A stretch of DNA of 23,213 bases, taken from IMG/VR virus record IMGVR_UViG_3300013132_000271, positions 1-23,213 of that record; one strand, given 5' to 3'. The notes below the pieces were generated by a model, which did no database searches, had not been told where the DNA came from, and was given only the letters and a program-made list of their open reading frames with translations. The number at the start of each line of letters is the position of its first letter. Position 1 is the first letter of the stretch. Position numbers and translations under genes: made by a program. Origin of the DNA: a virus. Positions 10,044-18,953 of the stretch are shown one piece after another.

Positions 10044-10075
10044 AAAGAAAGGCGCTTCGGCGCCTTTCTTTTTTT
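10044..10075 (+). terminator. strong intrinsic terminator
   Basis: A 12-bp stem: AAAGAAAGGCGC (10044-10055) pairs perfectly with 10060-10071 around a TTCG tetraloop, followed by a T run to 10075. It ends the accessory island just before the late block. Confidence 0.95.
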
Positions 10076-10082
10076 ATAAATA
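10075..10082 (+). promoter_or_regulatory. T4-type late promoter
   Basis: TATAAATA exactly matches the T4 late promoter consensus. It starts on the last T of the terminator and lies 22 bases before the ATG of the first gene of the late block, the expected distance. Confidence 0.8.
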
Positions 10083-10104: not shown

Positions 10105-11100
10105 ATGAGATTAGGATTCAGAGATTACTTGCAAGAAGCAAAAATCAGAGGTTCAGGTGCCGATTCTGCGCGTCAAGTGAACAAATATATTCACCCTTAC
10201 CTGCCAGGCGGAGCTAAAGCAGGAACTGATACTCATACACTTGCTTCAGATGCAGGCGGGTTGAAGGCAGGAACAGCTGTTACACTTCACGCCCATCATG
10301 AAGAAGATGGCGAACATCATGTAACAGTCTCTTCGGGAAAAACTAAGGTCAAGATTCCTGTCAGCAAACTGAACAAACCAGTAGTAGCAAAGAATAGAGG
10401 GCTTGTACAAGAAGGTCAGCTAGCAGAGCATCTTAAGGGCCACGGATTGATGGAAGGAAAGTCTGCAGGATTTACTGCAGGCAATGACTTTCATTTGATC
10501 GATAAGCGAGGTCCAACTAAGAAAAGAATCCGAGGATCTGAAGGTTTTAACGCGAATGCTAAAGGTGAAGATATTCAAGGCGAGCACAAATCTGACATTC
10601 GAACAACCGCCTTTGGTCAGCTTACTCTAACAAGACATCCCAAGACACAAAAGTGGCATATCAGCGACGAAGCACGAGCAAAGCGCCCCGAGTATGCTGC
10701 AGCAATAGAAAAAGCAACTGTTACGGTGGGAGGCAAAAAGAAGTCGCTTATTGACCACCTGAACGAAACAGAAACTCCCGGTACAGTTAATAAAACCGGA
10801 TTTCATTCAGATGAAACATCAGTTCATCCCGCGCACGCTTACATGCGTGACCATCATGTTGATGTAATACATATTGATTCGCATGGGACATACCGTGCAG
10901 GAAAAAGCGAAACCAAAGATAGACACAAATTAGGACTTCCTGCAATGGAAGGTGTTGGTAAATTTAGAGTTCGTCAGAAACAAGCATCAAATCCAAATTC
11001 TCGAACAGCACAATTTAGTATCAAGAAGCTAGCTAAATCAGATGTTCACATAGGAACAGATGAAGGTGCTAATGAAATGAAAAGAAGATTAGGACATTGA
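10105..11100 (+). CDS. late protein, possible PD-(D/E)xK nuclease fold, capsid-targeting-like N-terminus, 331 aa
   Basis: The N-terminus MRLGFRDYLQEAK resembles the T4 capsid-targeting segment (F-x-x-hydrophobic-x-E-A), with a possible prohead-protease site after LQE. Residues 50-92 look like a small beta barrel (GTAVTLHAHH, HHVTVSSGKTKVKIPVSKL). Residues 100-185 have VQEGQLAEHL, GNDFHLID (D128), QGEHKSD (E160-x-K162) and AFGQLTL, an order of Glu helix, Asp, ExK that fits a PD-(D/E)xK nuclease, though this is inference. The remainder (FHSDETSVHPAHAYMRDHHV) is His-rich. A GGGGG ribosome site precedes the ATG. It is the first gene after the late promoter. I recall similar uncharacterised proteins in environmental T4-like phages. 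A purely structural role cannot be excluded. Confidence 0.7.
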   Translation: MRLGFRDYLQEAKIRGSGADSARQVNKYIHPYLPGGAKAGTDTHTLASDAGGLKAGTAVTLHAHHEEDGEHHVTVSSGKTKVKIPVSKLNKPVVAKNRGLVQEGQLAEHLKGHGLMEGKSAGFTAGNDFHLIDKRGPTKKRIRGSEGFNANAKGEDIQGEHKSDIRTTAFGQLTLTRHPKTQKWHISDEARAKRPEYAAAIEKATVTVGGKKKSLIDHLNETETPGTVNKTGFHSDETSVHPAHAYMRDHHVDVIHIDSHGTYRAGKSETKDRHKLGLPAMEGVGKFRVRQKQASNPNSRTAQFSIKKLAKSDVHIGTDEGANEMKRRLGH

Positions 11101-11344
11101 TCCTTTTGCCCATCATTCACAACAAAGCAATTTTACACACCTTGTCAATATACGTCAATGCAGAGCATTAAAGAGAAAAAACTATTACTAAAGTTCGCCA
11201 TGCAGATGGGACAACCCGTAGATCCTGCATTGGTAGAACTATTGACGGTGTTTCTGATACTCTTACAATAGGCATTTTAACCGATACTGCAGGTGCTGAT
11301 GTTGGTGCTATCATAGGTTGGAACGAGATAATATAGGAAAAAAT
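11101..11344 (+). pseudogene. 244-bp gap with two overlapping short frames, possible gene remnant
   Basis: There is no promoter or terminator I trust here. An ATG frame at 11158-11271 (37 codons) gives MQSIKEKKLLLKFAMQMGQP followed by VDPALVELL. A second frame without a start, 11172-11336 (55 codons with stop), gives VRHADGTTRRSCIGRTIDGV and then TIGILTDTAGADVGAIIGWN. Both read like phage protein rather than random translation, but neither has a ribosome site and they are in different frames. A decayed or rearranged structural gene is the simplest explanation. The last bases (ATAGGAAAA) are the ribosome site of the next gene. Confidence 0.4.
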
Positions 11345-12493
11345 ATGCTCACGCTAAAAGGTTACTTACTAGAAGCACGACAAAAAACATCTGTTGATGC
11401 AGAGCTTTTGTCACATCTTACTCACGCTAAAGACCTGCCGCATGAACTTCCTGGGCCTGGGCATGACCACGGTGTAAACCTTATTCATGAGTTTCATAAG
11501 TTAAGAACGGGACAACCTACATCAGTTGTTGCTACGCATAAGGTTGATGGGGGAGCATCTGTTGTCGTGGGTCATGATGAAAAAGGACCTTTTGTATCAG
11601 ATAAGCATAGACACGGTCGAGGTGTAGTTGCAAGAAACGAAGAAGAAATTGATCATCATTTTGGACACGCACCATCTTACGCTGCTTCAATGAAAAATGT
11701 TCTTGAACATGCACACCATATAGTTAACAAAGGTCATACTGTTCAGGGTGATCTTTTGTTTACAGAGCATGATAAAGATATCAGAAAAGAGGGCACAGTT
11801 ACAGCACATCCCAATCGATTGCAGTACAAGATGAAAACTCCCGCGAAGGTAGGTATTGCGATTCATACAGAAATTACTAATGGGATTGCACACAAACCCT
11901 CAAAGGCAGCAATTGCCCACCATGCAGAAGTTTTCAAACCTAATCTAGAGTTTGACAGCAACAAGCATCCTTACAGTGAAAAAGACAGAAAAGCGACTGA
12001 GATGCATTTGCAAAAAGCTAAAGAGCTGATTGGTAAAAATCCTGATCATAGTCATTTGACCGATGAGCATCAAACTCACTTTACAACCTACATGAATAGG
12101 ACAACCCGAAAGGGTACTACCCCGTCTGTTGAAGGTTACAAAACGCATCTAGAAGAAGAGGGTGTAAAGAAAGCAGGTACGGTAAAAACTGATGCAGCAA
12201 AAGCAACCCATATCAACAAGTTTAAAGGTATGGCAGAGCACGTAGAAAAGAATCGCGATGCTTTTGAAAATACACTTAAGATCAATCATCACTTATCACA
12301 AGCAACAGAGCATGTGTTAAAGGGGATCAAACATCACGATATGCACACGATGGTTGACGGCAAACAGTCGGACACAGAAGGTGTCGTTCTTCTAAAGCGC
12401 GACCAACAAAAGCGTCTCAGACCCGTTGCCAAACTAGTTCCGAAAGAAGTATCACATCAGATTCTCAATAATCCTCGCTTCTCAAAGGCATAA
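11345..12493 (+). CDS. ligase-like nucleotidyltransferase with capsid-targeting-like N-terminus, 382 aa
   Basis: The N-terminus MLTLKGYLLEARQ again resembles a capsid-targeting segment with LLE|A as a possible prohead-protease site. Residue K66 lies in HKVDGG, matching motif I (KxDG) of covalent nucleotidyltransferases (DNA/RNA ligases, capping enzymes). GDLLFT (135-140) could be motif III, EGVVLLK (345-351) matches motif IV, and PVAKLV (K363) fits motif V. I recall this as a phage family of unknown function (possibly DUF6267). It would form a lysyl-AMP intermediate if active. The ATG at 11345 follows ATAGGAAAA; the TTG at 11318 is rejected. Its stop is one base before the next gene. No OB-fold domain is evident after motif V, so substrate and reaction are open. 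Confidence 0.75.
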   Translation: MLTLKGYLLEARQKTSVDAELLSHLTHAKDLPHELPGPGHDHGVNLIHEFHKLRTGQPTSVVATHKVDGGASVVVGHDEKGPFVSDKHRHGRGVVARNEEEIDHHFGHAPSYAASMKNVLEHAHHIVNKGHTVQGDLLFTEHDKDIRKEGTVTAHPNRLQYKMKTPAKVGIAIHTEITNGIAHKPSKAAIAHHAEVFKPNLEFDSNKHPYSEKDRKATEMHLQKAKELIGKNPDHSHLTDEHQTHFTTYMNRTTRKGTTPSVEGYKTHLEEEGVKKAGTVKTDAAKATHINKFKGMAEHVEKNRDAFENTLKINHHLSQATEHVLKGIKHHDMHTMVDGKQSDTEGVVLLKRDQQKRLRPVAKLVPKEVSHQILNNPRFSKA

Positions 12494-12494
12494 A

Positions 12495-13616
12495 ATGAAA
12501 GAAAAGACAACAGTTTTCGCATTTGGGAGAATGAATCCCCCCACAACAGGCCACGGGAAGCTGCTCGATAAGGTGAAAGAAGTTGCAAAGAAGCATGCCG
12601 CAGATCATTTGGTTGTGCTGTCTCATAGTCAAGATGCGAAAAAGAATCCTCTTACATCCGAGCAAAAACTTAAACATGTAAAAAGATTTTTTCCTAATAC
12701 AAACTTTGCTACATCATCGAAAGAACATCCTACATTCCTACAACATGCAGCAAAATTACATGCATCAGGCACTCATCATCTTGTGATGGTTGCAGGTTCT
12801 GATAGGACTCAAGAGTATCATGATAAACTTCATCAGTACAATGGTCCTGATAAGATGTTTAACTTCAAGTCAATTAAGGTAGTATCGGCAGGGGAAAGAG
12901 ATCCTGATGCAGAGGGTGTAGAAGGTATGTCGGCGTCAAAGATGCGTGAGCATGCGAAGAACAATGACTTAGACAGTTTCAAGCAAGGTATTCCTAAACA
13001 TGTAAAACATGAGCACGCTAAAGAATTATTTGATGATGTTCGAGGTGGAATGAAACTTGCAGAATCATTTTTGGCATGGTTGAAGGAAAATAAATATAGG
13101 ACGAGCTCTGGTTCATATAAGAAAAATCCTCGCAATCCTTCAGGTATTTCAAAGAAGTATTCAGGAAATCTTTCTCACAGTACACAAGCAGCAAGAAAAG
13201 CACATTGGGAAAAAACGAGCAAGATGGCATCAGACAATCCTGCAGCATATGAACCTGCTCCTGGCGATAAAGATGCAAAAACAAAAGAATCAGTATACAC
13301 GAAGCGTTACAAAGAAAGGTTTGGAGAAGAAAAGATGTCTATTCCATTTTTGCTAATGACAGAGCAGCAAAGAGAGCGCCTTCGCGAAATGAATGCACCC
13401 GCTTCTCAAATAACCTTTCTGAATACAAAGACACAAAACTTTGATATGTGTCCTGGTGCAGTTGCAGCATTTAATAATCTTATCGGAGATGTTTCAGATA
13501 AAGAGATGAAGATGATGCAAACCACTAAGCAAATGCATGCTGCTGTATCTGCAGGCATAGACGTTAAACCTGAGCACCTTAAAAGAATGCAGTTTAAACA
13601 TTATGTAGGGGTATAA
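12495..13616 (+). CDS. HIGH-type nucleotidyltransferase fused to a second late protein, 373 aa
   Basis: Residues 1-185 are a cytidylyltransferase-like (NMNAT-type) domain. FGRMNPPTTGH (10-20) carries the TxGH form of the HxGH motif, AGSDR (100-104) follows, and GMSASKMRE (144-152) is the SxSxxR-type motif. Such enzymes move AMP or CMP from NTPs to a phosphorylated acceptor; NMN is possible but not shown. At residue 186 a new module starts with MKLAESFLAWLKEN, a capsid-targeting-like segment. It continues with SGSYKKNPRNPSGISKK and PGDKDAKTKESVYTKRY, pieces I associate with small late phage proteins. A good ribosome site (GAGGTGG) precedes the ATG at 13050, and GGAGA precedes another at 13335, so shorter products may also be made. 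This looks like an in-frame fusion of two genes. Confidence 0.8.
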   Translation: MKEKTTVFAFGRMNPPTTGHGKLLDKVKEVAKKHAADHLVVLSHSQDAKKNPLTSEQKLKHVKRFFPNTNFATSSKEHPTFLQHAAKLHASGTHHLVMVAGSDRTQEYHDKLHQYNGPDKMFNFKSIKVVSAGERDPDAEGVEGMSASKMREHAKNNDLDSFKQGIPKHVKHEHAKELFDDVRGGMKLAESFLAWLKENKYRTSSGSYKKNPRNPSGISKKYSGNLSHSTQAARKAHWEKTSKMASDNPAAYEPAPGDKDAKTKESVYTKRYKERFGEEKMSIPFLLMTEQQRERLREMNAPASQITFLNTKTQNFDMCPGAVAAFNNLIGDVSDKEMKMMQTTKQMHAAVSAGIDVKPEHLKRMQFKHYVGV

Positions 13617-13617
13617 A

Positions 13618-14055
13618 ATGGCTGAGCAACTAATCAACTCATTGAAAGAATGTCTTGCCGACGTTTTTGTATTCTATGTTAAGGCACAAAACTATCATTG
13701 GAATGTAGAAGGTCCAGATTTCTATCAATATCATAAATTATTTGGTGATATCTACGAAGATGTGTCAGGATCTGTAGATGGCATCGCTGAATTGATTAGA
13801 ACACTAAATGAGTATACTCCAGGATCATTAGATAGATTCAAGACTCTTACAAAGTTGTCTGAGGATGAAACAGTTCCTAATGCGCTCAGTATGGTAGCAA
13901 ATCTCAGAATGGATAATGACCAAGTAATTGCTTCGCTAATGATTGCATACAAACAAGCTGAAGATGCAGGTGAGCTAGGCATTTCTAATTATCTACAAGA
14001 TCGTATTCAGTCCCACCAAAAACATGGCTGGTTTCTAAGAGCAACAGGAAAGTAA
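13618..14055 (+). CDS. Dps-like mini-ferritin, 145 aa
   Basis: The signature YVKAQNYHWNVEGPDFYQYH (20-39) and the VDGIAELIRTL stretch (53-63) identify the Dps family, which forms 12-subunit shells that oxidise iron, store it and can protect DNA. Ferroxidase ligands H27, H39, D54 and E58 line up with E. coli H51, H63, D78 and E82. The position of E. coli D67 is Gly (G43), with D44 beside it, so the site may be altered. There is no basic N-terminal DNA-binding tail. It is packed with its neighbours (ATG one base after the upstream stop region, AGGGG ribosome site). In a late block it may protect packaged or incoming DNA from oxidation; that is inference. Confidence 0.9.
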   Translation: MAEQLINSLKECLADVFVFYVKAQNYHWNVEGPDFYQYHKLFGDIYEDVSGSVDGIAELIRTLNEYTPGSLDRFKTLTKLSEDETVPNALSMVANLRMDNDQVIASLMIAYKQAEDAGELGISNYLQDRIQSHQKHGWFLRATGK

Positions 14056-14056
14056 T

Positions 14057-15034
14057 ATGGACACCGTACTTAGACAAGATTTAATAGATGTTGCCCTTCG
14101 AGCAACCGATGCATATTTAGGTGTTGAAAAGAATGCTATGGGAAAAAGATACGCGACACCACAAGACATTCACGACTTTTCTTTTTACTTGTCTAAGGCG
14201 CACGATGCACTTACACAACTAGGTGATATCGACAATCATGCAGAGTATATGCAAAATCATGTCAATACTATGATGAAATTGTCTAACCATGACGATTCAA
14301 CAATGTCTGATCTGCCTTTTACACATGTACCTAAGTCAAGAATTGGATTTGAAGAATCATATCAAATTGACGAAGAAGCTTCTAAAGGTCTAGCTGCAAA
14401 GGCAGCAAAGTCAGGTGTCTCACTAGGTACTCTAAAGAAGGTGTATGCAAGAGGTGTGGCAGCATGGCGCACAGGGCATAGACCCGGGACAACCCCGCAA
14501 CAGTGGGGTATGGCTAGAGTCAACTCATACATCACTAAGGGTAAGACATATCATACTGCAGATAAAGATCTTAATGAAGGATCAAAAAAAAAGTTAGACG
14601 TTGATGTTACTGAAAAAGATGTAGATGAAATTGTAAAGGGTATGGACTGGGAGGATATTGTCGATCTCTACGATAAAGAAGAACTTACAGAAGAAACACA
14701 ACTAGATGAAAAACTATCGCCAGCAGCTAGATTAAAAAAACAAAGAGATTTCACACGAACAGGAACAAAGCGAAACATCATTCTACAAATGAAACTTAAG
14801 AGGCCTTCCAATCCCTCTCAAATTCAACAACGCGCAGTTGTAGCAGCTAGAAGAGCACTTTCAAAAAGATTTCTACAAGGCAGAAGCAAAGATCAATTAT
14901 CACCTCAAGAGAAAGATATTCTTGAAGCAAGACTAAAGAGACTTCGTGAGATGGGAATTCAACAAATAGTTGCACAGAAGATGATTCCTCGTATTCGTCA
15001 AATCGAACAGAAAAGATTGAAATCGAAGCGATAA
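14057..15034 (+). CDS. late mosaic protein with a DUF5824-like domain, 325 aa
   Basis: Residues 1-80 are helical (DLIDVALRATDAYLGVEK, FYLSKAHDALTQLGDIDN). Residues 110-172 carry GVSLGTLKKVYARGVAAW, RTGHRPGTTPQQWGMARVNS and TADKDL, a compact domain I recognise from many phage head-region proteins (DUF5824, from memory). An acidic stretch (DVDEIVKGMDWEDIVDLYD) links to a very basic coiled-coil C-terminus (225-325; ARLKKQRDFTRTGTKRN, RRALSKRFLQ). FEESYQIDEEAS (98-109) just before the domain could be a prohead-protease region. Long acidic and basic segments suit a prohead core or internal protein. No enzyme motif is visible. Function unknown. Confidence 0.7.
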   Translation: MDTVLRQDLIDVALRATDAYLGVEKNAMGKRYATPQDIHDFSFYLSKAHDALTQLGDIDNHAEYMQNHVNTMMKLSNHDDSTMSDLPFTHVPKSRIGFEESYQIDEEASKGLAAKAAKSGVSLGTLKKVYARGVAAWRTGHRPGTTPQQWGMARVNSYITKGKTYHTADKDLNEGSKKKLDVDVTEKDVDEIVKGMDWEDIVDLYDKEELTEETQLDEKLSPAARLKKQRDFTRTGTKRNIILQMKLKRPSNPSQIQQRAVVAARRALSKRFLQGRSKDQLSPQEKDILEARLKRLREMGIQQIVAQKMIPRIRQIEQKRLKSKR

Positions 15035-15040
15035 TAAATA
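15033..15040 (+). promoter_or_regulatory. late promoter, NATAAATA form
   Basis: AATAAATA in the 24-base gap between two late genes matches the relaxed late promoter word known from T4-like cyanophages. The following ATG, with a GGAGG ribosome site, is 18 bases on. Confidence 0.6.
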
Positions 15041-15058
15041 ATCCTTATTGGAGGTTAC

Positions 15059-15616
15059 ATGCCTATTAGTTTTAAAGAATTTAAGAAAAACCTCGAAGAA
15101 AGGTGCTGGCCAGGATACAAACCTGCGCCAGGCAAAAAGGCATATGACAAAGGTTCTTGCGTTAAGGAAGAAGAAGTTGTAGAAGGCAGTGAAGGTACTT
15201 TGTGGAGAGTAGAAAAGTCAGATAGCACTGGCAGATTTTATGTTGTTAAAGGTTATAATAAAGCCAGAAAAGTTTGGAAAAATGAGTGGGGTGCTAGCGA
15301 CCATACACACCAACAAGATGCACAATCTCGAGCAGATCAATTAAATAACGGTGTGTCAGAAGATTGGCAAAAGGTAAATCGTCAAGACAAAACAGATGGT
15401 CTAAGTCCTGCTGCAGTCAAGGCATATCGTCGTGAAAACCCAGGTTCAAAACTACAGACAGCTGTAACTGAAAAAAATCCCAAGGGCAAAAGAGCATCAA
15501 GAAGAAAATCGTTTTGTTCTAGAATGGGCGGAATGAAAAAACGCTTGACTAGTGCAAAGAATGCTAGAGATCCCGATTCACCCATTAACAAAGCGCTTCG
15601 TCGCTGGAATTGCTAA
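15059..15616 (+). CDS. late mosaic protein with DUF6321-like C-terminus, 185 aa
   Basis: The start MPISFKEFKKNLEERCWPGY contains a capsid-targeting-like F-x-E-F-x-x-x-L-E-E segment, then PGYKPAPGKKAYDKGSC, a short module seen in many phage proteins. Residues 36-105 form an inserted module beginning EEVVEGSEGTLWRVEKSD with GRFYVVKGYNKARKVW. Residues 113-185 (LSPAAVKAYRRENPGSKL, RRKSFCSRMGGMKKRLTSAK, INKALRRWNC at the end) match a basic domain I recall as DUF6321. The basic C-terminus may bind DNA. The VVEGSEG stretch is similar to the VAEGS repeats of the next gene. It is preceded by a GGAGG site and a late promoter word. Confidence 0.7.
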   Translation: MPISFKEFKKNLEERCWPGYKPAPGKKAYDKGSCVKEEEVVEGSEGTLWRVEKSDSTGRFYVVKGYNKARKVWKNEWGASDHTHQQDAQSRADQLNNGVSEDWQKVNRQDKTDGLSPAAVKAYRRENPGSKLQTAVTEKNPKGKRASRRKSFCSRMGGMKKRLTSAKNARDPDSPINKALRRWNC

Positions 15617-15625
15617 GAGGAAAAT

Positions 15626-17161
15626 ATGAGCAGACAATTATTCGAAGAAGCACGAAAAGTGCTCACTCAAGAAGCAGCTGCTAAGCTGGATCCTGTCGGT
15701 CAGGAAGATAAAGATATTGATAATGATGGCGATTCTGATAACACAGATTCCTATCTGAAAAGGCGTCGTGGTGCGATTAGTGCAGCCATTAAAAAATCAA
15801 AGAATGAAAGTTCTTTGTCAGATGATGATGTTGAAAGACTAAAATCTATTCTGGGTGAGCAAGGTGTGGCGGAAGGCTCTGATAAATTACAAGGAACACC
15901 AGTAGTATCATTGAGTGATTTTGATGGTAAAGATAATAAAAAGAACAAGTATGGTCAAACTGTTCCCAGGAGATTAAAGAAAGATGATCCAAGAGTCAAG
16001 TTCCACAAGGATGAAAAAAAAGATGTGGCGGAAGGCTCTTTAGAAGAAGTCAGTTTAGGTTTAGCCAAACGGGCCAGAGACAAAGCCGAGTATTTTGTTG
16101 ACATGGACTATGACGACATGCGGGATCGACCATATGGTTATAGTGAAAAGCAAAGAAGCAAATTTCAGAGATACATTGACCGTAAAGAACCCCGAGCTAA
16201 GGGAGATCGAGATTGGGATCCACCAAAGAAGAAAGGTGTGGCGGAAGCAAGGTCTGACGATCCAGATTATGATGAAGATCTTAAACGATTTAAAAAAGGT
16301 TTACCTCCAAAGGCACCTAAGAAAATTTACACTAAAGATTTTGGCAAGCCCAATACCCCCAAACCTGCTCCAGAGCCGGCTAAAAATATGAAGAAAGAAG
16401 AAGTAGAGCAGGTAATTGATGAACAAGGTAGAGTTGTTAAGGGTAAGGGTTACGATAATCCTGAAAATGTACGAAAGGCGCCTGAAGGTGATACTAAAAT
16501 GTCCAGCATGATGCCGGGATATGATGAACGCGCTGCTAGATTTTTAGCGCGCCAAGCAACAGGTAGAGTGATAAAGGGTAAAGCACAAAGCGCACCTCAA
16601 AAAGAAGATTTTGAAATGATTGAAAATCTAAGCTTCAACATATCAGGCAATCCCCCTTACCAAGATTACATCAAAGCAGCTTTAACAATAGCAGAGTGTA
16701 ACTCATTGCAAGAACTTTCAGAAGAAGATCAGGAATATATAATTAGCGAAATGGAAGATGCATACAGAACAAATGACATTGATTTCATTGTTGAGGCAAA
16801 TGCAATTGCAGACATGAAAAAAAGTATTGCATCTCTAAAAGATCAAGGGTATGCAGTAGAGGGTTTCTATGAAGATGATCATCTGTTCTATGTTTACGAA
16901 CATAAAGACACAGGAGTGATTAGAAAAGTATTCTATGAAGGCACACAAAAAGTTACACAGGTTTTAGAGAATTTGGGACAAGATGTTTCAGATTTTTCTG
17001 ACAGATTAAATGCTTATATGAAAAAGAAGTATGGAAAGGATGCACCTACATTAAAACCTAGAACATCACAATCAGTGATTAAACCTGTTGCTCCACATGA
17101 TAGTCCTGAAGCTGCTTTAGCTCAGTTGAATAGAAACATCCCTCTTCCAAGAAAAATATAA
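15626..17161 (+). CDS. late mosaic protein with EF-hand-like loop and GVAEG repeats, 511 aa
   Basis: Begins MSRQLFEEARKVLTQEA. Residues 30-41 (DIDNDGDSDNTD) fit a calcium-binding EF-hand/dockerin-like loop with D30, D32, D34, G35, D36, D38 and D41, followed by a basic helix (SYLKRRRGAISAAIKKS). Three VAE-type repeats follow: GVAEGS (80-85), DVAEGS (133-138) and GVAEA (204-208). They separate charged, poorly ordered modules, for example NKYGQTVPRRLKKDDPRVKF. A second pair is GRVVKGK (269) and GRVIKGK (313). The C-terminal third looks folded (IKAALTIAECNSLQELSEED, GFYEDDHLFYVYEHKDTG). The composition suits a prohead core or other internal protein; no enzymatic motif is seen. GAGG ribosome site. 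Confidence 0.7.
   Translation: MSRQLFEEARKVLTQEAAAKLDPVGQEDKDIDNDGDSDNTDSYLKRRRGAISAAIKKSKNESSLSDDDVERLKSILGEQGVAEGSDKLQGTPVVSLSDFDGKDNKKNKYGQTVPRRLKKDDPRVKFHKDEKKDVAEGSLEEVSLGLAKRARDKAEYFVDMDYDDMRDRPYGYSEKQRSKFQRYIDRKEPRAKGDRDWDPPKKKGVAEARSDDPDYDEDLKRFKKGLPPKAPKKIYTKDFGKPNTPKPAPEPAKNMKKEEVEQVIDEQGRVVKGKGYDNPENVRKAPEGDTKMSSMMPGYDERAARFLARQATGRVIKGKAQSAPQKEDFEMIENLSFNISGNPPYQDYIKAALTIAECNSLQELSEEDQEYIISEMEDAYRTNDIDFIVEANAIADMKKSIASLKDQGYAVEGFYEDDHLFYVYEHKDTGVIRKVFYEGTQKVTQVLENLGQDVSDFSDRLNAYMKKKYGKDAPTLKPRTSQSVIKPVAPHDSPEAALAQLNRNIPLPRKI
15863..16249 (+). repeat. three short in-frame repeats encoding (G/D)VAE(G/A)
   Basis: Copies begin at 15863, 16022 and 16235. All share TGTGGCGGAAG; the first two share TGTGGCGGAAGGCTCT, the same codons for V-A-E-G-S. 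Spacing is 159 and 213 bases, both whole numbers of codons. They punctuate distinct modules of the encoding protein. Confidence 0.85.
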
Positions 17162-17176
17162 TTAAAGGAGACATAA

Positions 17177-17749
17177 ATGTCAGCTTGGGGAAAACTAGAC
17201 AGCAAACAGCTTAGTGCTAATGTTGTTGTAACAAACGGCAGCAGAGAAGTTGCGAATGCAACAGGAAATGCTACTGTATTTTTAAACGAAGTTAAGGCAG
17301 GCGATTACTTTGTATTCGGGCCTGTGCAAGGTAACACGAACGTCAAGTATTACGTAAGCAACGTCATCTCAAATATACTGTTAAATCTAACAACAGAATA
17401 TGAAGGGGCAACGTCTAGCGGCAAGGCAAACGTTCAGCAAGGTCCTAAGGTTATTAATATTGTTGATAATATTGTAGGCAACTATACCATTCAGAAGATC
17501 TACGGCGTAGATTCTAATGAAGCGGGCAATACTGCTAACAAAGCAAACAACGTTAATCAACCAGGCTGGACACACCAGATTGTTTATACTGACGGATATG
17601 GTGCGCGCCGCGTTAAGACAGAAACATTAGTTGCAATGTCTAAGAACTTCAACCGTGATGATACAGCTAATGTTGAGTTATCGCCAACCACAGGCAACTT
17701 GCTAGTAGATGCAGATGACGATACTGTACTAAGAGATAACAATGCCTAA
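17177..17749 (+). CDS. probable virion structural protein, 190 aa
   Basis: Begins MSAWGKLDSKQLSANVVVTN and is rich in Val, Asn, Thr and Gly with alternating polar and hydrophobic residues (FVFGPVQGNTNVKYYVSNV), suggesting beta structure. The segment PGWTHQIVYTDGYGARRVK followed by TETLVAMS is a pattern I associate with structural proteins of T4-like environmental phages. A strong AAAGGAG ribosome site precedes the ATG. The last eight bases overlap the next gene, which has fibre-like sequence. No enzyme motif or membrane span is present. The exact virion location is not shown. Confidence 0.7.
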   Translation: MSAWGKLDSKQLSANVVVTNGSREVANATGNATVFLNEVKAGDYFVFGPVQGNTNVKYYVSNVISNILLNLTTEYEGATSSGKANVQQGPKVINIVDNIVGNYTIQKIYGVDSNEAGNTANKANNVNQPGWTHQIVYTDGYGARRVKTETLVAMSKNFNRDDTANVELSPTTGNLLVDADDDTVLRDNNA

Positions 17750-18011
17750 ACTTTCAGCAACCGCGCAGTCAAATGATGTAGACGATAATGATCTGCTCTA
17801 TGTTGTCGTAGATGGTAACAGCAGAGCAGTCACTGCGGGTAATCTGATTGCATCATTGACACAATTAAAATCACCTCCTGCATCTACTTTGGGTGCAGTG
17901 GGTGATGTAAAAGGTATGTTTGCTTTTGATAGCAATTACATTTACATTTGCACAAGCAACTATACGGGTAGCGCAAATGTCTGGAAGAGGGTAGCTATTT
18001 CTACTTGGTAA
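17742..18011 (+). CDS. small structural or fibre-associated protein, 89 aa
   Basis: Residues 44-89 hold SPPASTLGAVGDVKGMFAFD, SNYIYICTSNYTGSANVWKR and end VAISTW. This 'GDVxGMxAxDSNYIYxCTxxYxGxxxxWKRxxxxxW' pattern recurs at the ends of phage tail fibre and other virion proteins, as I recall. The N-terminal half (LSATAQSNDVDDNDLLYVVV, then GNSRAVTAGNLIASL) resembles another common fibre segment. The ATG lies inside the end of the preceding gene, so the two are coupled. Probably a virion component; a free-standing copy of a fibre-tip module is a reasonable reading. Confidence 0.75.
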   Translation: MPKLSATAQSNDVDDNDLLYVVVDGNSRAVTAGNLIASLTQLKSPPASTLGAVGDVKGMFAFDSNYIYICTSNYTGSANVWKRVAISTW

Positions 18012-18012
18012 T

Positions 18013-18396
18013 ATGATTCTTGAATTGACCTCAGAAAACTTTGTAATCTATGCTATCAAGAACTATGACAACCCCGCTTGTCGAGGAATGTCTGAATTTA
18101 ATGATGATCTAAAACGGTTTAAGTATATCAAAAGATTGTTAAGTAGATACAAGGCCGGGAAGGGTTTGAAGGAAAGGTTGATCTTAAACCACATAATAGT
18201 TTTGAACAACCTTTTTGGACCCGATGCTTGTGTTAGAATGATGTTCTTCAAGATGGAAGAAAAATACTGGAGCGAGATAAAAACCTTCCTTGTGTTTTTG
18301 AACTTGATTCCTCCTAACATGCAGATCACAAACCTTATAAATGAAACTGATATTCCGCTAGACATGAACATAGCCACTATTCTTAGGAAGATTTAA
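18013..18396 (+). CDS. conserved helical late protein, 127 aa
   Basis: The product is basic and helical: MILELTSENFVIYAIKNYDN, DDLKRFKYIKRLLSRYKAG, LKERLILNHIIVLNNLFGPD, YWSEIKTFLVFLNLIPP. This layout matches a short protein conserved in T4-like marine and freshwater phages as I remember it (possibly DUF7207); its function is not known. No membrane span is convincing despite hydrophobic helices. Its TAA overlaps the next ATG by one base (TAATG), so the pair is translationally coupled. Confidence 0.7.
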   Translation: MILELTSENFVIYAIKNYDNPACRGMSEFNDDLKRFKYIKRLLSRYKAGKGLKERLILNHIIVLNNLFGPDACVRMMFFKMEEKYWSEIKTFLVFLNLIPPNMQITNLINETDIPLDMNIATILRKI

Positions 18397-18953
18397 TGCC
18401 TACACGATTCATAGACGCCGCTATTGTCTACCGTATTCTCAGAATGCTTGTAACTCCCTTTGACAAAACCGAGGCCTATAAGTTAGGTATCATTGATGCA
18501 AAAGGTAAGGTTCTTAAAAGAGAATCGCAACTCAATACAAAAGAGCAACAGCAGGCATACACTCTACTGCATAGACTAGTTTTCCGCCTCAAAAGAATCA
18601 TTGAAAAAGTTCCTATGGAAAACAAGAAGTTTCTTTCCTTTGCAGCAGCTCTTGCACTCATACGTGAAAACTATGAAAAGGGTATAGAACCTATTGACCT
18701 CGAGTCACAGTTTCTAAATGAGATGAAGAAGGAACATGATACTCAATTGATCGAGCATTTTCTAGGAAATAAATACACCATGACATTCAAGCAGTTCATG
18801 GAAGAAGATGGCGGAGGAGCACCTGCAAATAATGCAGCAGTAACAGGTGGTATCGCAGGATTGCCGCCCGATCAACCTCCCGTACCATCTATGAATAAAC
18901 TAACTATGTTTAGAAGGAACAAGAAAAATGACTTGGCTACAAAAATTAAGTAA
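18396..18953 (+). CDS. conserved late protein with an internal capsid-targeting-like segment, 185 aa
   Basis: Residues 1-100 are helical and basic (IVYRILRMLVTPFDKTEAYK, LGIIDAKGKVLKRESQL, LHRLVFRLKRIIEKVP), a layout I recall in T4-like phages next to the preceding family. Residues 129-138, MTFKQFMEED, closely resemble the T4 capsid-targeting start, here internal, and are followed by a Gly/Ala/Pro-rich low-complexity tail (GGGAPANNAAVTGGIAGLPP). ATG codon 129 is at 18780, preceded by AGGA twelve bases earlier. The next gene starts within its last 26 bases. A prohead or head-completion role is possible, on sequence style only. Confidence 0.7.
   Translation: MPTRFIDAAIVYRILRMLVTPFDKTEAYKLGIIDAKGKVLKRESQLNTKEQQQAYTLLHRLVFRLKRIIEKVPMENKKFLSFAAALALIRENYEKGIEPIDLESQFLNEMKKEHDTQLIEHFLGNKYTMTFKQFMEEDGGGAPANNAAVTGGIAGLPPDQPPVPSMNKLTMFRRNKKNDLATKIK

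Follow-up and report, generated by a model that had tools for sequence, protein, structure and literature searches.

Leaders resembling the T4 capsid-targeting sequence on enzyme-like proteins in the late block of a T4-superfamily phage fragment

In T-even phages, a short leader loads diverse proteins into T4-type heads, and the ADP-ribosyltransferase Alt is a packaged enzyme. The T4 internal proteins with this capsid-targeting sequence were reportedly described by Mullaney and Black in 1996. Mutations in internal protein III (IPIII) placed the targeting function at residues 4 and 7 and that of processing at residues 8 and 10; the protease gp21 cuts after L/I-x-E (PMC9026906). This map gives a pattern at positions i, i+3, i+4, and i+6. 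IPI, IPII, and IPIII are each an injected inhibitor of a GmrSD restriction enzyme, and the leader is the sole part that they have in common (PMC12373910). Here we describe similar segments in a block of genes at positions 10105 to 18953 of the 23,213-base IMG/VR record IMGVR_UViG_3300013132_000271, a T4-superfamily phage fragment (the whole stretch is called the window below). We consider it likely, with a probability of roughly 0.8, that these segments work as the T4 capsid-targeting sequence does and serve the packaging, cleavage, and ejection of enzyme-like cargo. Capsid targeting of the tagged proteins is well supported; we infer cleavage, retention, and ejection for this phage, as well as enzyme function, and it is probable that the phage delivers a set of enzymes to its host along with its DNA. 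Among open-licence papers, we found no report of the leader on enzymes outside T-even phages or of a link between it and the virion enzymes of cyanophages.

Genes are named here by their first position in the window; the segments, their genes, and the transcription signals described below all lie on the plus strand. The 10105 gene begins with MRLGFRDYLQE/A (MRLGFRDYLQEA; 10105..10137; profile score 17.2; the slash marks the candidate cleavage site), and the 11345 gene begins with MLTLKGYLLE/A (11345..11374; 12.8), the spacing of which is identical to that of T4 IPII and IPIII. The 15059 gene starts with MPISFKEFKKNLEE (15059..15100; 11.9 at residue 8 and 7.0 at residue 5), where the targeting pair is present and an L-x-E site lies a few residues further on, as in T4 IPI. 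These three segments occupy the N-terminal position of a tag, within the first 10 to 20 residues or so. The other two are internal: MTFKQFMEE/D at residues 129 to 138 of the 18396 protein (18780..18809), which has the best score in the window (19.8), and the weak AESFLAWLKEN at residues 189 to 199 of the 12495 protein (13059..13091; 6.6), placed just after the nucleotidyltransferase domain. All five segments had been named by an earlier, sequence-only reading of this DNA and were found within one residue of where it put them (residue 188 in the case of the 12495 protein). The T4 leader that it had quoted agrees with the T4 record, which gives MKTYQEFIAEA for IPII and IPIII; IPI starts MKTFKEFTS.

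Each segment has a hydrophobic or aromatic targeting pair at i and i+3 (F5/Y8, L4/Y7, F5/F8, F131/F134, and F192/W195 in the 10105, 11345, 15059, 18396, and 12495 proteins). Cleavage-site letters follow the pair as LQE/A, LLE/A, LEE/R, and LKE/N, and the MEE/D of the 18396 segment departs from L/I at that position of the gp21 site. The tag agrees with that of T4 at positions 4, 7, 8, and 10, the ones mapped by mutation. Scores came from a profile built solely from relatives in other viral contigs, with the window, T4, HTVC008M, and Melnitz left out of the training (consensus MK[ST]FKE[FY][LI]xEA), which ranked IPII, IPIII, and IPI first to third among 80 T4 open reading frames as a positive control. 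When the 6,851 residues of protein in the window were scanned, the top four places were residue 131 of the 18396 protein (19.8 bits), residue 5 of 10105 (17.2), residue 4 of 11345 (12.8), and residue 8 of 15059 (11.9). Four sites of at least 10 bits were seen in the whole window, compared with 0.19 expected from shuffles. The likeness to the T4 tag proposed for all five segments therefore holds for these four but not for the 12495 segment, which scores at noise level.

The carriers are like T4 IPI, IPII, and IPIII in having a short N-terminal leader with hydrophobic or aromatic residues at positions 4 and 7, L/I at 8, and E at 10, in placing unrelated bodies behind one leader, in belonging, as far as relatives show, to phages with a gp21-type protease, and in late expression. 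They differ in that the T4 proteins are small GmrSD inhibitors, whereas the carriers here are larger, enzyme-like, and from aquatic T4-superfamily phages, with some tags internal via fusion.

Megablast of the block against phage records gave 0 matches, and relatives were gathered by protein comparison, yielding about 170 loci (given L numbers here) of relatives and T4. Among the relatives, the tag is enriched at protein starts about 20-fold by a general pattern (176 starts in 2,214 deduplicated open reading frames versus 48 of 12,438 internal methionines) and more than 100-fold by a regular expression with the exact T4 spacing, M..[FY]..[FY][LIV].E (119 of 2,098 starts versus 6 of 11,885 internal methionines, counted with the window and T4 left out). 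Shuffling of residues 2 to 16 gave a mean of 6 general hits and a maximum of 12, compared with 172 real ones. Because sequences of one family are not independent, a split-by-family test was added, with families clustered by two-sided coverage: when half of the tagged families were used to train the profile, the remaining families gave 79 and 133 N-terminal hits, compared with the 2.7 and 2.2 predicted from the density of internal hits. The strict pattern occurs in 43 of 777 clusters, indicating a leader common to otherwise unrelated proteins. It is found at the N terminus of 54 of 119 DUF6267 proteins, 24 of 95 cytidyltransferases, 20 of 33 DUF6321 proteins, and 9 of 17 members of the 10105 family, versus 0 of 54 helicases, 0 of 46 DUF7207 proteins, 1 of 37 UvsX proteins, 0 of 23 DNA polymerases, and 0 of 16 primases. 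In one gp21-carrying record (L018, 9821-15574), seven consecutive genes with differing bodies (DUF6267, HAD/polynucleotide-kinase-like, and unknowns) have MKTFKEYLEE-type leaders, namely, MKTFKQYLEE, MKTFKEYLEE (three times), MKTFKEYIRE, MTKKFKEYLYE, and MTKKFKEYLES. Judged by its sequences, this array looks like an address label copied from gene to gene, as in T-even IP loci.

Signals for late expression accompany the tag. An intrinsic terminator ending the upstream transcription unit (10044..10071; 12-bp stem, 4-nt loop, T tract) precedes an exact match to the T4-type late promoter, TATAAATA, at the start of the block (10075..10082), 22 bases before the 10105 ATG. This arrangement is kept upstream of the 10105 homologues in L083, L084, L087, and L088. 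Among relatives, 40 of 212 tagged genes have TATAAATA in the 70 bp before them, versus 59 of 1,817 others (p = 7e-16). With one mismatch allowed, the motif was not enriched in the window, and we use only the exact site at 10075, taken in its context. Of the eight IMG/VR carrier records longer than 100 kb, seven encode the protease gp21 (PF03420), as do HTVC008M, Melnitz, T4, and 2 of 9 smaller carrier records, which are fragments. Together with the counts at protein starts, this bears out the expectation that the motif would be enriched near gp21-type heads.

Virion proteomics of cultured relatives points in the same direction. In cyanophage S-CREM2 (OR473000), the six best profile scorers among 217 proteins are all in the virion mass spectrometry list (Table 3 of PMC10665884): the cytidylyltransferase gp154 (MKNFSSFLTEAD), gp13, the S-adenosylmethionine (SAM) hydrolase/lyase gp6 (MKDFDSFLEEFD), the APH-like kinase gp14 (MKRFDAFLTEEE), gp136, and the "Cas9"-annotated gp12, which carries RFASFMAEA near residue 19. 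The probability that six random picks would all be detected is about 1.5e-4; scores of at least 8 bits were reached by 5 of the 52 proteins that were detected and by 0 of the 165 that were not (p = 7e-4). The cytidylyltransferase family is also reported in virions of S-SM1, S-SZBM1, S-SCSM1, and S-CBWM1, and the copy detected in S-SZBM1 is tagged (MRFRQFIIEAV). Presence in virions, as first proposed, is thus borne out for the S-CREM2 top six and for the cytidylyltransferase in other cyanophages but not for two S-SZBM1 proteins considered below. From the sequences, the tag offers a specific reason that such enzymes might be in S-CREM2 virions.

Two further observations concern these phages. Although S-CREM2 gp12 is labelled Cas9/Csn1, Pfam gave no hit for it, and its match is to phrog_3561, which a short part of gp14 matches too (both at L185:7704-12846). 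Both are tagged virion proteins, and the Cas9 label looks doubtful on sequence grounds. In S-SZBM1, the small proteins gp191 and gp192 (MKSFKSFLSESV and MKTFKQYITEAK) are encoded near the terminase genes (L188:44311-45125), forming a second tagged locus.

Some of the bodies behind the window leaders have signatures of enzymes. The 10105 protein (10105..11100; 331 amino acids) has a PD-(D/E)XK-like nuclease signature: E103, D128, E160-x-K162, and Q172 do not vary among 15 homologues and fall on helix, strand, strand, and strand, as in PD-(D/E)XK nucleases; the predicted elements are helix 98-112, strands 128-131, 157-162, and 169-177, and helix 188-203. Both the E...D...(E)xK...Q signature and, by secondary-structure prediction, the alpha-beta-beta-beta-alpha order are present. 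Its likeness to HTVC008M gp126 and Melnitz_15 lies mainly in the leader in an alignment, and homology of the bodies is not claimed. The 11345 protein (11345..12493; 382 amino acids) is a DUF6267 protein (PF19782, E = 1.1e-29) in which K66-x-D68-G69, G135-D136, E345-G346-x-V348, and K363 are invariant in 37 homologues that are about 25% identical to it in the alignment. Motif I (KxDG), motif IV (EGxV), and the motif V lysine of covalent nucleotidyltransferases are all invariant. Its model has a pLDDT (predicted local distance difference test) of 89, and the best Foldseek matches in the PDB are nearly all DNA or RNA ligases, with weak values (E of at least 0.1, template-modeling score of about 0.2). 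These motifs suggest that the carriers are, as the sequence-only reading had supposed, nuclease-fold-like and ligase-like, and the conserved catalytic residues of the two families support its description of the set as enzymatic rather than purely structural.

A PDB sequence match of DUF6267 to eS8 is a coiled-coil match and was not usable; the single, weak PADLOC match, JetC3 (E = 0.0017), falls within the helical region of the 11345 protein and was rejected. PDB sequence searches with the 10105 and cytidyltransferase proteins gave chance-level matches only and nothing usable. Nine relatives' genes, such as L131:4098-4544, encode a 148-amino-acid tagged protein that matches the first third of DUF6267 only, possibly a split DUF6267 gene to judge by sequence.

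The 12495 protein (12495..13616; 373 amino acids) is cytidylyltransferase/NMNAT-like (PF01467, E = 5e-6; phrog_3041, E = 5.5e-75), has GH and SASKMR motifs, and is 36% identical over 190 amino acids to virion-found S-CREM2 gp154; its nearest isolates are phage C48C1, HTVC008M, DLP_6, Melnitz, and cyanophages. Many of its relatives continue in the same chain with a P-loop domain, and in HTVC008M there is an adjacent separate zeta-toxin/AAA_33-type kinase. The tagged 15059 protein (15059..15616; 185 amino acids; DUF6321, PF19846, E = 1.1e-13) has a C-terminal half 64% identical to S-CREM2 virion protein gp137 and a CWPGY module matching virion protein gp160. Elsewhere, the tag is carried by, among others, an adenylate kinase (L074; PF00406, E = 1.9e-37), HAD-like proteins in L018 and L161 that match phrog_415 "polynucleotide kinase," and the S-CREM2 SAM lyase (PF23780).

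Relatives also shed light on the two internal segments. The 18396 protein (18396..18953; 185 amino acids) matches phrog_18642/2086 over residues 4 to 108 (phrog_18642, E = 3.6e-33), and its tag begins a fused C-terminal module (MTFKQFMEEDGGGAPANNAAVTGGIAGLPPDQPPVP...). L091 has the same fusion, whereas the module occurs as a free tagged gene of 61 to 70 amino acids in L111, L155, L164, and L165. Because of these standalone counterparts, the internal tag is read as a predicted fused, possibly internally initiated, tagged protein. Among relatives of the 12495 protein, many have an N-terminal leader on the enzyme (e.g., MISFKSYIAEAAAKG and MKFKEFLLESEEK). The enzymes of the window, L083, and L084 have none at the N terminus but have ESFxAWLxEN or a variant directly after the nucleotidyltransferase domain (ESFSAWLQEN in L083). 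The L083 counterpart makes an internal tag in the 12495 protein plausible, although the segment is not significant and is suggestive only.

We propose that a late transcript would supply the 10105, 11345, and 15059 proteins, the 18396 module, and possibly the 12495 enzyme late in infection. The short N-terminal tag would bind each cargo to the prohead core, a gp21-type protease would cut after L/I-x-E, and the mature proteins would remain among the packaged DNA. At the next infection, the cargo would enter the cell with the DNA and could act ahead of any phage gene expression. Predicted cargo comprises a PD-(D/E)XK-type nuclease, a ligase-type nucleotidyltransferase, and an NMNAT/cytidylyltransferase; relatives would also carry adenylate kinase, polynucleotide-kinase/phosphatase-like, and SAM-lyase proteins. 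We tentatively suggest that the most probable task of such cargo may be the repair or protection of nucleic acids and of nucleotide/NAD pools on entry, in the face of fast-acting host defences; the precedent is the inhibition of GmrSD enzymes by T4 IPI, IPII, and IPIII. It is conceivable, if somewhat short of an even chance, that in aquatic T4-superfamily phages the leader is a modular address label on many unrelated enzymes, giving each phage a prepackaged nucleic-acid end-repair and nucleotide/NAD kit. That kit might, again with some doubt, consist of ligase, polynucleotide kinase/phosphatase, nuclease, NMNAT-like protein, adenylate kinase, and SAM lyase, acting before expression against fast defences.

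A common gp21-type L/I-x-E site, late expression, and the small size of some members would also suit prohead core or scaffold proteins like T4 gp67, gp68, and gp22, which would be cut up and lost at maturation rather than ejected. We think this improbable because the catalytic residues are invariant across the roughly 25%-identical homologues, which is unexpected for a scaffold, and because the cytidylyltransferase, SAM lyase, and kinase-like carriers stay in mature S-CREM2 virions, the first of these being found in virions of several other cyanophages also. Slightly less credible still is the view that the carriers are ordinary late cytosolic enzymes, with the leader an unrelated amphipathic helix start due to descent or start-codon context and virion detection due to contamination. 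The profile does prefer K after the start methionine, as do many phage gene starts, and the S-CREM2 authors noted that CsCl-purified virions can hold contaminants and left the status of the enzymes open (PMC10665884). However, the leader is common to families without detectable homology elsewhere, replication families lack it, its pattern fits both the targeting and the processing positions of T4, and all six top tag scorers of S-CREM2 were detected. As for a chance resemblance chosen by eye, one of the five segments (that of 12495) is at noise level, with 1.4 sites of at least 6 bits expected; the remaining four outrank every other place in the window proteome, with 0.19 sites of at least 10 bits expected, and the enrichment is 20- to more than 100-fold. 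Chance is already refuted for those four and is very improbable as an account of the whole.

The noise-level 12495 segment and the caution over contaminants weigh against packaging and ejection of tagged enzymes by this phage, and so do several other points. Internal tags are not known to work in T4. Neither gp21 nor any head gene is in the 23-kb window, which is too small to hold gp21, so the co-occurrence with gp21 depends on relatives. The general pattern was broadened past the T4 letters so that the window residues fit, and the exact-T4 expression misses the 10105 and 11345 leaders themselves. The strongly tagged S-SZBM1 gp191 and gp192 are absent from the published mass spectrometry list as far as it was accessible, and no leader-cleaved peptide is on record. 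The enzyme activities depend on motifs, and fold matches are weak; for the 10105 protein the search gave HhaI endonuclease among its matches (E = 0.08).

The locus can also be compared with other known systems. T4 Alt, as is proposed for the cargo here, is a head-packaged, ejected enzyme with gp21-processed propeptides, but the enzyme classes here are others and the Alt leader, MELITELFDED, fits the pattern poorly. The virion cytidylyltransferases of S-SM1, S-CREM2, S-SZBM1, S-SCSM1, and S-CBWM1 are homologous to the 12495 protein; copies in S-CREM2 and S-SZBM1 start with the tag, which is missing from the N terminus in the window's clade, and the cyanophage papers gave no explanation of the enzyme's route into the virion. 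With the T4 RNA ligases and Pnkp, which repair tRNA against anticodon nuclease, there is a likeness in the KxDG...EGxV...K of DUF6267 and in the phrog_415 matches of L018 and L161. Those T4 proteins are made after infection, whereas similar functions would be prepackaged here; the fold similarity is weak. Giant phages of the PhiKZ/SPN3US type carry head proteins, including enzymes, that are processed by a prohead protease, but several of their propeptides exceed 100 residues and are off the T4 pattern (PMC5694885).

If the window leaders do act as the T4 leader does, a T-even curiosity would become a readable code by which the genome alone predicts the head-borne proteins of an aquatic T4-like phage. 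It would provide a possible reason for recurrent enzymes such as the cyanophage cytidylyltransferase in virion proteomes, single out dozens of unstudied families as candidates for first-strike or counter-defence proteins, and offer natural tags with which proteins could be loaded into the heads of T4-like phages besides T4.

Elsewhere, the window has DNA polymerase, UvsX-like recombinase, gp41-type helicase, primase, ThyX, and MazG-like genes. The block is flanked by helicase and primase, a placement that is the same in Pelagibacter phage HTVC008M and Methylophilales phage Melnitz. Within the block, an untagged Dps/ferritin-like gene (13618-14055; PF00210, E = 3e-20) separates the cytidylyltransferase gene from a DUF5824 gene; in relatives such as HTVC008M, cytidylyltransferase and DUF5824 form a single chain (phrog_3041). 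The product of 15626-17161 has, at about residues 25 to 60, a DKDIDNDGDSDNTDSYLKRRR segment that looks like a Ca-binding loop and runs on into a basic stretch, and segments of this type recur in the block proteins HTVC008M gp133 and Melnitz L002:18520-19275.

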